Made by a program: the position numbers and the translations under genes
Part shown: in pieces, positions 7,342 through 43,479 of the stretch
Numbering within the stretch: the stretch's first letter is position 1
Layout: every line of letters begins with the position of its first letter
The notes under the pieces: model-generated
What the model was told of the DNA's origin: nothing
Database searches by the model: none
The model's input: the letters and a program-made list of their open reading frames with translations, nothing else
NCBI GenBank assembly: GCA_021399445.1
Contig: JAJTUQ010000007.1
Location: 868,001 to 932,000 of the forward strand
Length of the DNA stretch: 64,000 nt
DNA from: Xylogone sp. PMI_703
Taxonomy: Eukaryota > Ascomycota > Leotiomycetes
Direction: 5' to 3'

Positions 7342-8861
7342 CGTTTGATTATTAATGAGTATGTATACTTTTCGGATGAGAGATAACTAGCGATTGAGAA
7401 ATGCAGATAAAATGAACGGCAAATCTGAGTATGATTCAGGAGGACTGTGAGGGTATGTAAGTTGTTATGGAAGAGTGTATCATTCACAATGACACACGAG
7501 CCCTAAGGAGGTAGGAGGAATATATTCTCTACTGCGCAGGCGTCGCCCATATAAAGGGCGGATTTACAAGCTTTTGGTAAGAACTACCGTAACGGTCATC
7601 CCTTCCAATATAATAAGCCAGCTCTCGGAACTAACCACCAGCCACATCACCTTGAAGGGTGCTTACACGAGACTCCTTGCATCTTGTATCCGATACTCTT
7701 GTACAGAAAGGGCAGTCAAAGAGAGTCTATTGGAGCCAGCCTCCTCCGGATTTGGCGGATCGACTCCGATATTCACGAAGCCAAGCACGAGGGCTGTATT
7801 ACATCCATGCAGTATAATCACGCCCTCACTTACGATTCGATGACAAAAGTTACGTCTTCTGTCATCCAGGCCATCTAGACTGTGGCGACCCGGAACTCCG
7901 AGCAAGAAAATGGGGGTTTGGTCAAGGCACACGAGAGCGCTGCTGTTCAGTGACGTTGGGTTTGTGATGCTGGAGTCCGGGCTCGCCCATGACGTAGATG
8001 GCGGGGTATTCGCCTCGCATCAACAGTCGCATTTGGTCGATGTTGCGGCTGCTGCACAATTATTATTTAATCCCAGCGGAACATAAAATCCCAGCATTGG
8101 CCACGCTTATCTTTCATATGGCACTCAAGTCTTGACTGTATGAAACGCATGGGAGAAAGACTTAACTGCAATAAAGTTGTGCTAGTCTCGAGCACGAGTG
8201 ACTTGGCAAGAGCTTGTTCTGCACGAAGAACTGAAGCCACACTTCCTGTAGTAAGTATCAGGAATACTGTTTCTTCAACTGGTAAGTCCATAGAACAGAA
8301 ATTGAGACGTTTACCTCTCTGCCCCTTATGAGGGCTCTTGAAAGATGTAGGTACCCTTCTCAAAAAGGGAATATGATTTTGTTGCCTGGATCCTAAGGCC
8401 CGAACAACTTCCGTTTCGGTTGGCTCCTTGGCGGTGAGCACACAATAGGAAATTCGGTTCTAGAGCCTTCTGATATCTTCTTCGAGATTTTACATTAAAG
8501 CCTCCGGGCTGCTTCAACACTAATGATTACATGAATTAACGACCACTCCTTCACGACTCCAATTCTCACACCATTGGTATGTATCTCAAGCTTCCCATTC
8601 ACCAGAAAGACCTGTCCTTTACATGATGATTTCCAATCTTTGCTGTGCACCAGTCATAATAGACCGACTTGTACTCAATTTCTTTGATGAACAATGGGCC
8701 AATGAGCCTGTTTTCTGATATCCCTGGACACCTTGAACTCATGCCTTGAACATACTTTACTTACAAGAGTTCATGCTGACCTCGACTGCGTATAGTTCAT
8801 TTCTCCAGCAACTAATTTTTCATATTTTTTTTCTGCCCTTCTAAACTAATACTTGCCCACC
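7342..8861. other. divergent intergenic region, no supported gene
   Basis: About 1.5 kb between the membrane-protein gene and aha1. It contains several modest open frames on both strands, including a minus frame at 8441-8067 and a 36-codon minus frame at 8032-7922 that reads like protein but matches nothing I know. None has convincing splice partners. Confidence 0.5.
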
Positions 8862-35025: not shown

Positions 35026-35032
35026 AAAAAAA
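35026..35032 (-). terminator. Pol III T7 terminator of tRNA-Phe
   Basis: Seven T residues on the minus strand, starting 3 nt after the discriminator base. Confidence 0.9.
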
Positions 35033-35070
35033 TATGGGTCGAACCGGGATCGAACCGGTGACCTTCAGAT

Positions 35071-35104
35071 ATCCCGTATGGAATACAAGTAGAATGAAGT
35101 TTTA
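35071..35104 (-). other. canonical 34-nt tRNA intron after position 37
   Basis: Located one nucleotide 3' of the anticodon GAA. The intron contains CTTCA, complementary to TGAAG of the anticodon loop, as expected for the pre-tRNA recognised by the tRNA splicing endonuclease. Confidence 0.92.
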
Positions 35105-35123
35105 CTTCAGTCTGACGCTCTCC

Positions 35124-35175
35124 CTACAACATTGTTAGCAGCTAGAACCTCTAGAACAAGCTAAATTCAACATAC
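35124..35175 (-). other. 52-nt spliceosomal-like intron in the tRNA D-loop (position 18/19)
   Basis: Begins GTATGT (35175-35170), has TGCTAAC at 35140-35134 and ends TAG (35126-35124). These are the donor, branch and acceptor signals of protein-gene introns in this window. Its length (52 nt) also falls in their range. An internal perfect hairpin CTAGA-GGT-TCTAG lies at 35154-35142. Exact removal restores D-loop AGTTGGGA. The boundaries are fixed by GT-AG; sliding them by a base breaks the rule. Confidence 0.85.
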
Positions 35176-35193
35176 CAACTGAGCTATCGACCC

Positions 35194-36767: not shown

Positions 36768-39520
<2,753 letters not shown>

Positions 39521-41641: not shown

Positions 41642-43479
41642 TTATTCTCTCGATACATCGCGACCAAATACTTTGGACTTCAGCCAGTCAAGAACGACAA
41701 GAACTCGGTTACGGGCTTCGAAAGTTAGCATGCTTTTGAAGATTTAGGCATCTGGAACTTACTACTAAAGCACATGCTCAAATAGGCGCTTCGCCAGAAC
41801 AGATATGTTAAACCTCCACCGCTTGCAAAGTTTCCGTTTAACCAACTCACGTCGGCAACCGCTCTGTCACTACCAATGTATGCAAGAGAACCCTGGTGGG
41901 TATAGTGGAACGGTTTGATATCCTTTATTCTTTTTAGTTGTTTTTCATGGCTTTCAATCTCTTTGGCTATCTCAGCGCTGTTTCCAGGTGATAGGTTCAA
42001 AGATGAGCTCAGATCTTGGATCTTCTTCTCAATCTCTTCAGTCTTGGCCATTGTATTGAAGAGGCGAGCTAAGAAAGCACCTTCTTGAGAAGCAACTTGT
42101 GCTGTTGGGGCGTACCCGGCAACTGCACAGTCGCCGACGGCCCAGATGTCCTTGGTTCCCTGAACAACAAGGTATTCATTGACAGCAAGGCCTCGTTTGG
42201 AATCCTTTTGTGCTGGAATCTGGGCCATAAGATCCTTTACTATACCACGGACTGCATTTCCAGTAGCCCAGACAAGTAAACCGTAGGGAAGGGTTTCTGT
42301 TGTTTTCTTTCCATCGGGACCGGTTACTTCTGCTTCGATATACTTATCAGTCACCTTTTTCACTGCTGTTTTAGTCTTAATTGTGATCTTCTCCTCCTTG
42401 AAAGTGGATTCAGTGTAGTCAATGAGTTGTTTGGAGAACATGGGTAGAACATTTGGAAGGGCTTCGACTAGGGTAACGTGAAGCTTGTCACGGATTTCTG
42501 GAATCAATTTCTTGACATCTTGGTCAAAGAAATCCTGTAGTTCGCCCGCAAATTCGACACCAGTTGGCCCACCTCCCACAACGACCATATGGAGCAGGCG
42601 CTCAACCTCTTCCGGAGATTGGTCCTTGAAGGCTGCAGTTTCTACGCAGTCCATGATCTTCTTCCGAATACGTTGGGCATCACCAATCTCCTTCAAGAAG
42701 CAAGAATGTTCTCTAACGCCGGGGATACCGAAAGTGGCATTTTCCGCGCCAACACTCACAACCAACATATCGTATGAAACCTCGGTCTTATTGGTAGCAC
42801 CTTTTATTTCGGAATTGTCATCAATCATGACAATCTTACGTTGTGGGTCAATCTTAGTCGCTTCTGCTTCATAGAACTTGACAGCAGCCTTCTTCTGCCT
42901 CGTAATAGCCCTTATAGGCTCCATGATGGAGCGGTGCTCGACAGTTCCGGTAGTACATGATGGTAAAAGAGGGGTGAAGAGGAAGTAATTTCTGGGAGAT
43001 ATAACGATGACGTTGTAGTTTTCGGTGTCAAGTTTTTTAAGTAGCGAGACGGCACCCCATCCAGTTCCTAAAAGTCACAGTTAGGACTATATCAGGGAGA
43101 AAAAGATATAGAAATACAAACCTAGAATGACAAGGTTCTTCTTGCTTGGATCTGGCTCGAATTGCTCTTCGGGGTGACGAGTCTCATATACTCCATACCC
43201 AAGATACGCCCCACCAGCTATTAATGAGATGTAAGTCAAGCGCCATGCCCATCTAAAAAACCGAAATCGGCGAGGCTTCTTTGCTGGTGCAGCATCAGAA
43301 TACGTCCGACGGAAGAACTGCTCAAATTGACGGTTAGTTGGTACAGTTCGTCGTCCAGCTTGTCGGGCACGTGAAATTTGTAGCGATGACGTTACAAAAT
43401 TTCGACGAGCACTAGCAGCCGATCTTAGGCCAATTGATGAGGTAGAGAGCCTCATCATTGCAGTCGACGACGACGCCAT
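41642..43479 (-). CDS. alternative (rotenone-insensitive) NADH:ubiquinone oxidoreductase, probably external (NDE type)
   Basis: Exons on the minus strand: 43479-43122, 43067-41763 and 41715-41642, 578 aa; introns of 54 and 47 nt. The third exon restores the conserved C-terminus RNRVLVVLDWLKSKVFGRD, an amphipathic membrane-binding helix. The N-terminus is a mitochondrial presequence rich in Ser, Arg and Ala, followed by one TM segment at about 83-99 (LTYISLIAGGAYLGYGV), which fits an outward-facing inner-membrane enzyme. FAD-binding motif LVILGTGWGAVSLL lies near residue 117; the NADH-binding motif VVVGGGPTGVEFAGEL near 281; quinone-side sequences WATGNAVRG and AVGDCA follow. An insertion (about 440-475) is helical, without an EF-hand loop. 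It oxidises cytosolic NADH and reduces ubiquinone without proton pumping. External orientation is inference. Confidence 0.92.

Follow-up and report, generated by a model that had tools for sequence, protein, structure and literature searches.

The ordinary introns of eukaryotic nuclear tRNA genes, handled by TSEN and Trl1, are one counterpart of the inserts described here: both interrupt tRNA genes, and introns of the ordinary kind also occur at 37/38 in the genome studied here, but the inserts differ from them in position and in carrying GT, branch-site, and YAG signals. Archaeal non-canonical tRNA introns are alike in that several can occur in one gene and at unusual positions; theirs, however, are recognised through a bulge-helix-bulge (BHB) motif. 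Fungal U6 genes, in fission yeast and others, have introns with GT-AG ends and a branch site, and these genes are short, encode a structured RNA, and are of Pol III type. The genome under study has one such intron, and the cases reported here differ from it in their host (tRNA), the number of genes, the 13 classes of site, and the frequent presence of an ordinary intron as well. Fungal U3 snoRNA genes likewise contain mRNA-type introns in a structured small RNA, but almost solely in one 5′ stem-loop, whereas tRNAs are interrupted here at many positions; among small structured RNAs, U3 and U6 alone are described as known for frequent introns (PMC5832005).

A 2026 review presents tRNA splicing as a process that does not involve the spliceosome (PMC13149111). 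The non-canonical intron search of tRNAscan-SE 2.0 is described for the archaeal mode, with BHB models, in the accessible text of PMC8450103, which does not contain the string "spliceosom"; the corresponding text of PMC4090602 contains neither "spliceosom" nor "D-loop". Titles and abstracts on the topic, drawn mostly from outside subscription papers and preprints, yielded no spliceosomal introns in nuclear tRNA genes. While the splicing machinery is known, tRNA appears to be new as a class of substrate.

The locus of interest lies in a 64,000-nucleotide stretch of the genome of the leotiomycete fungus Xylogone sp. PMI_703 (the window), which is part of contig C23 in the searched assembly (50.13 Mb, 25 contigs). 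Its features are as follows; boxes A and B are assigned by their consensus.

35035..35193, minus strand: nuclear gene for tRNA-Phe(GAA), consisting of three exons separated by two introns (direct reading, parsing, ARAGORN)
35176..35193, minus strand: exon 1, 18 nt, mature nucleotides 1 to 18 (parsing)
35175..35186, minus strand: box A, TAGCTCAGTTGG, whose last G is the first base of the insert
35124..35175, minus strand: D-loop insert, 52 nt, GT...AG, between mature nucleotides 18 and 19, spliceosomal in type
35134..35140, minus strand: TGCTAAC, a branch-site-like motif within the insert, with the presumed branch A at 35135
35105..35123, minus strand: exon 2, 19 nt, extending to nucleotide 37 (parsing)
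35071..35104, minus strand: ordinary intron, 34 nt, after nucleotide 37, the TSEN intron position
35035..35070, minus strand: exon 3, 36 nt, with discriminator A (parsing)
35046..35056, minus strand: box B, GGTTCGATCCC, intact
35026..35032, minus strand: run of seven T 3′ of the gene, resembling a Pol III terminator (sequence read)

A sequence-only reading of the window had placed at these coordinates a 52-nt insert with GTATGT, TGCTAAC, and TAG signals in addition to a 34-nt intron, and direct reading and parsing bear this out: the insert at 35175-35124 reads GTATGT...TGCTAACAATGTTGTAG (in outline, GTATGT...TGCTAAC...TTGTAG). The claim that excision yields a 73-nt tRNA-Phe likewise stands. 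The exons sum to 73 nt, the anticodon is GAA, and the spliced gene scores 114.3 in ARAGORN, which matches the score of L010, an uninterrupted copy; given the unspliced gene, the program calls tRNA-Ile in error. Box A does end at the first base of the insert, as had been stated, the G at 35175 being common to both. Alignment with L010, which gave 10 mismatches over a stretch that included the ordinary introns, permits three registers for the insert, one of which is GT-AG.

Searches of the genome by BLAST and patterns found four tRNA-Phe genes. Looking for the insert in all copies, as the sequence-only reading had proposed, gave a divided result: a GT...AG insert of 52, 53, or 54 nt occupies the D-loop site in three of the four, and the gene on C19 (L010) is without it. 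That reading had named intact tRNA-Phe genes lacking the insert as one part of what would mark the locus as a dead copy, and L010 is such a gene. In the two other interrupted genes, the site and the GT/branch/AG anatomy are kept and the insert sequence has diverged. The mature bases of L009 and L011 are identical (73/73) and their ordinary introns nearly so (24/25), whereas only 39 of the 48 aligned positions agree between their D-loop inserts (an alignment of 59 columns, gaps included), and the similarity of their 300-nt flanks does not exceed that of shuffled sequence. In this pair, exons are conserved and splice signals retained while inserts and flanks drift. A BLAST search with the whole window gene (E up to 0.001, common words skipped) found no other match in the genome to the insert itself.

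The window gene is one case among many, and the scale envisaged by the sequence-only reading was too small. Loci were gathered by a scan with the Rfam tRNA model (63 of 1,824 candidates scored) and by patterns combining box B with a T-run, without use of splice signals; L140 to L144 were obtained through BLAST with spliced exons. Many fetched loci parse as tRNA only once an insert of about 50 nt is omitted. In this non-exhaustive census, with anticodons by our own reading, we count 32 mRNA-type inserts in 29 tRNA genes with 13 anticodons: Leu-AAG (4 genes), Phe-GAA, Pro-AGG, Leu-CAA, and Arg-ACG (3 each), Leu-TAA, Ile-AAT, Arg-TCT, Thr-AGT, and Gly-TCC (2 each), and Pro-TGG, Thr-CGT, and Thr-TGT (1 each). 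L089, L068, and L098 have two inserts apiece, many interrupted genes also have the ordinary intron at 37/38, and an Arg-ACG relic (L082) and L131 were left out of the intron count. With the 70 distinct uninterrupted tRNA genes called by ARAGORN among the fetched loci, the interrupted share is 29 of 99 recovered genes in an incomplete census, which yielded no tRNA-Asp, tRNA-Glu, or tRNA-Val(AAC). Of 27 interrupted genes supplied to ARAGORN with the intron option on, 22 were misread or missed, and tRNA gene counts in fungi may therefore be wrong. In a separate observation, Thr tRNA genes are clustered in the region G000:C12:4193681-4220033; the same D-loop intron is present in some of them and absent from others, and their orientation is not uniform. 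One pattern match, L012 (G000:C20:6633209-6636225), fell by chance in a frame that by eye resembles acetolactate synthase of the bacterial or plastid style.

The interrupted genes are spread over seven contigs (C1, C12, C19, C20, C21, C22, and C23). Assembly error was rejected because the inserts, which fall into 13 site classes in 29 genes on these contigs, carry splice signals. The suggestion that the window insert is a recent insertion at a single locus, or a dead copy, is weakened now that three of four tRNA-Phe genes and 12 further anticodons are interrupted. Mobile copies of one intron (an introner) were also considered and rejected: blastn among the 32 inserts detects likeness only within each site's own gene family and, together with the lack of another BLAST match for the window insert, gives no support for one recent mobile family. 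Duplication accounts for the relatedness of inserts inside a gene family, so that the number of independent events is about 13 rather than 32.

In the final list, whose insert ends were set by hand to suit both the tRNA and GT-AG, 30 of 32 inserts run from GT to AG, with lengths of 49 to 64 nt (median, 54.5); the exceptions are two Arg-ACG genes, L060 (GT...TG) and L061 (GT...CG), each with an insert of 53 nt. The 5′ splice sites are near GTAAGT, with G at position 5 in 29 of the 30 GT...AG inserts, and YAG forms the 3′ end in 29 of 30. A branch-like NYTRAH occurs 7 to 18 nt before the end in 27 of 30 (mostly at 9 to 15, one at 18), against a mean of 8 and a maximum of 15 in 1,000 shuffles. 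The three inserts without such a site by the pattern used are those of L091, L106, and L107.

The placement of the ends was also approached without regard to motifs. For 14 of 25 genes, a parser that allows a single excision ranked a GT...AG solution with the best; the other 11 comprise three genes with two inserts, L060 and L061, the uncounted L082 and L131, and four in which a slightly different excision was favoured. Alignment to uninterrupted paralogues permitted GT-AG in all 12 pairings, which represent six isoacceptors (Phe, Ile, Thr-AGT, Pro-TGG, Leu-AAG, and Gly-TCC), with 2 to 6 registers possible in each. Excision restores the tRNA sequence, with single-base precision in genes that have an uninterrupted twin: once its insert is removed, Thr-AGT L111 is identical to the uninterrupted L019 in 72 of 72 mature bases. 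After excision, ARAGORN assigned 23 of the 29 genes their expected anticodon and 26 their expected isotype, with scores equal to those of uninterrupted copies for Phe (114.3) and Thr-AGT (116.4). Three genes (L059, L095, and L109) received the right isotype and a different anticodon, their ordinary intron being placed differently; L069 and L106 received another isotype, and L099 received no call. For seven genes with inserts at 26/27 (Ile), 31/32 (Arg-ACG), or 25/26 (Arg-TCT), the chosen excision outscored all 12 shifted ones. Several registers tie for the D-loop inserts, and a shifted excision scores slightly higher for L057, L140, L059, L069, L081, and L063.

The sequence-only reading had likened the insert to introns of protein genes in the window, which proves apt: five of these, of 50 to 58 nt, carry the same kinds of signals.

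43068..43121, minus strand: NDH2 intron, 54 nt, GT...CCTAAC...AG (alignment with the fungus's own protein P0241)
38906..38963, minus strand: Cdc48 intron, 58 nt, GTATGT...ACTGAC...TAG (both homologous proteins tried)
37364..37413, minus strand: Cdc48 intron, 50 nt, GTAAGT...ACTGAT...TAG (both homologous proteins tried)
39214..39270, minus strand: Cdc48 intron, 57 nt, GTAAGC...ACTGAC...CAG (one of the two homologous proteins tried)
39327..39382, minus strand: Cdc48 intron, 56 nt, GTAAGA...CACTAAC...CAG (one of the two homologous proteins; 5′ end of the gene, less certain)

The GT...AG tRNA inserts, at 49 to 64 nt, resemble the members of this small comparison set in length and in their 5′ splice sites. 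A further 42-nt Cdc48 "intron" (38487-38446) was taken as an alignment artefact and dropped. Elsewhere in the window, positions 8621-8719 of the plus strand match the Rfam snoRNA Afu_190 (36.9 bits; cut-off, 35), and two proteins encoded in the window have their next named relative in Scytalidium lignicola (80% and 94%).

Placed by eye in tRNA numbering, the 13 site classes all fall between mature nucleotide 18 and the variable region: 18/19 (Phe and Leu-AAG), 19/20 (Pro-AGG), 21/22 (Thr and Pro-TGG), 25/26 (Arg-TCT), 26/27 (Ile and Leu-TAA), 30/31 (Leu-CAA), 31/32 (Arg-ACG), 32/33 (the second insert of the Pro-AGG gene L089), and the variable region (Leu-AAG and Gly-TCC). None lies at the TSEN-type position, one nucleotide 3′ of the anticodon. 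Boxes A and B are unbroken by every insert, box A being completed at 18/19 by the intron's own G; such an arrangement would be needed for transcription by Pol III, although the intactness of box B is partly built in, as box B formed part of most searches. A T-run lies 3′ of all six loci found without that criterion (L009, L011, L091, L130, L140, and L141); for other loci found by pattern, it was part of the search. These features bear on the proposal that the inserts are retained, or are spliced from a different, Pol II-made RNA that is not used as tRNA. GT-AG introns are normally those of Pol II transcripts, yet such an RNA would account neither for the tRNA sequence restored on excision nor for the retained boxes and the T-run at six of six loci, and we give this proposal almost no credence.

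Self-splicing introns were rejected as candidates. The catalytic core of a group I or group II intron takes hundreds of nucleotides, and GT...AG inserts of 49 to 64 nt, like the two others of 53 nt, are far too short. Removal by the tRNA splicing endonuclease, or by another BHB-type activity as with archaeal introns at odd sites, has in its favour that ordinary introns occur in many of the interrupted genes and that archaeal tRNA genes can have several non-canonical introns (PMC8450103). In a relaxed BHB test, none of the 32 inserts passed in any permitted register; this is a weak point against the endonuclease, as the positive control failed too, with only 1 of 40 ordinary tRNA introns of the genome passing (shuffled mean, 1.0). 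Because ordinary introns pass no more often than shuffled ones, the counts favour neither side. The case against TSEN rests instead on position and on the GT, branch, and YAG motifs at fixed spacing, which an endonuclease of this kind leaves without explanation. We regard it as highly improbable.

The spliceosome, by contrast, may already have a substrate of the required type in this fungus. U6 RNA is transcribed by Pol III. The U6 gene (L049) contains a 53-nt GT...TGCTAAC...AG intron (G000:C20:2705895-2705947) between TTT and GAAAC, of the same kind as the tRNA inserts, and is the only full-length U6 found, the sole one of six listed matches above the family cut-off (47 of 3,687 candidates scored). 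Unless an uninterrupted copy was missed, its splicing is vital, and the spliceosome of Xylogone sp. PMI_703 therefore very likely acts already on a Pol III-type transcript. No insert was present in the 28 listed 5S rRNA genes, all of which span the whole model (47 of 2,097 candidates scored; insert-bearing copies would score low), and SRP RNA is represented by one gene of full model length (26 of 281 candidates scored). The same arrangement gave no matches in a prokaryote genome collection and viral contigs, as expected for collections without fungi.

Whether the inserts need to be removed can be judged, within this assembly, from isoacceptors for which no uninterrupted gene was found. A 22-mer across the Arg-ACG junction, allowing up to 3 mismatches, had no match in the genome assembly. 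The equivalent Pro-AGG search gave five matches, four of them in tRNA-Ala genes (L135, L136, L138, and L139, which are the genes of L064, L070, L071, and L128) and the fifth (L137) with the loop TTCGGG, by eye a tRNA-Pro(CGG) whose intron is of the ordinary kind. Six spliced tRNAs compared with the genome by BLAST likewise returned no uninterrupted Arg-ACG or Pro-AGG, in a search that missed known genes such as L068 and L098. Neither Leu-AAG without its variable-region insert nor uninterrupted Leu-CAA is among the loci recovered by the general searches. For Arg-TCT, uninterrupted matches exist (L142, C21:5038121; L143, C12:89367), in both of which the acceptor and T arms look damaged; they lack the intron, keep an intact anticodon arm, have a G-rich variable region, and are possibly old relics. 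By wobble rules, Arg-ACG and Pro-AGG should be required to read CGU/CGC and CCU/CCC codons. The NDH2 gene of the window uses 14 CGT/CGC and 11 CCT/CCC codons. Given these codons in use and no uninterrupted gene found for either isoacceptor, removal of the Arg-ACG and Pro-AGG inserts in vivo is likely, unless such a gene lies in a stretch that the assembly lacks.

The same evidence weighs on the idea that interrupted genes are dead or dying, introns or reverse-spliced RNAs having landed in them while uninterrupted copies do the work. Copies without an insert exist for Phe (L010), Ile-AAT (L122), Thr-AGT (L019), Pro-TGG (L144), and Gly-TCC (L105), so that the interrupted genes of these isoacceptors could be dispensable, and damage is present in L060, L061, L069, L082, and L099. 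In two of the three Arg-ACG genes with an insert, the insert closes with TG or CG rather than AG, and L069 and L099 have, by eye, lost one base near positions 8 to 10. Against this idea stand the missing uninterrupted Arg-ACG and Pro-AGG, the identity of L009 and L011 in every mature base despite diverged inserts and flanks, and the retention of splice signals in inserts whose blastn likeness stays within gene families. In Arg-ACG, exon damage accompanies loss of the AG in L061, while the exons of L060 still look intact. We consider it very improbable that the interrupted genes are dead or dying.

Several copies merit description in their own right. The Arg-ACG genes with an altered 3′ splice site lie at C1:6080984 (L060) and C1:6083437 (L061, also with D-loop damage), and the anticodon stem of L060 is paired and differs from that of L083 by one compensated pair. 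The relic L082 (C19:7290813) has lost its 5′ half. Together, L060, L061, and L082 offer a natural experiment on whether a gene dies once the AG is lost. By eye, the D-loop of L089 is longer than in its siblings and L081 has one T-T mismatch in the anticodon stem. In L105, L106, and L107, the three tRNA-Gly(TCC) genes recovered, the acceptor stem has, also by eye, the same pair of T-T mismatches (3-70 and 4-69); their other acceptor pairs vary among the genes yet stay paired, an odd combination.

The sequence-only reading had offered processing by the spliceosome as one explanation of the tRNA-Phe insert, and this gains support from recurrence in 29 genes and 13 anticodons, with two isoacceptors for which no uninterrupted gene was found. 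We hold with high confidence that, in a sizeable minority of nuclear tRNA genes, pre-tRNAs are spliced by the spliceosome following invasion by U2-type introns. Such introns, of 49 to 64 nt, would have entered these genes, among them three of the four recovered for tRNA-Phe. Pol III would transcribe through the insert, a step proposed because boxes A and B and the T-run are present. The nuclear spliceosome would then recognise the 5′ splice site, branch, and YAG and remove the insert, after which the restored cloverleaf would be trimmed at its ends and the ordinary 37/38 intron, if any, cut by TSEN and ligated. We infer transcription, splicing, the order of these steps, and use of the product in translation.

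It is also probable that the spliceosome is an obligatory machine of tRNA maturation in this fungus, such that the reading of Arg (CGU/CGC) and Pro (CCU/CCC) codons, and some of the decoding for Leu, Ile, Thr, Phe, and Gly, relies on tRNAs formed solely by removal of spliceosomal introns from Pol III pre-tRNAs, some with two such introns plus an ordinary one. The interrupted genes provide a direct test of whether the spliceosome acts on Pol III transcripts beyond U6. If the inserts are removed in vivo, they would constitute a genome-scale exception to spliceosome-independent tRNA splicing, decoding would be coupled to mRNA splicing, and each pair of interrupted and uninterrupted genes would serve as a natural experiment in how an RNA gene gains or loses an intron. 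If the spliceosome is indeed obligatory, these introns would form a further class of tRNA intron beside the TSEN/BHB, group I, and group II classes, one that current tRNA finders do not see and that may be widespread among fungi.
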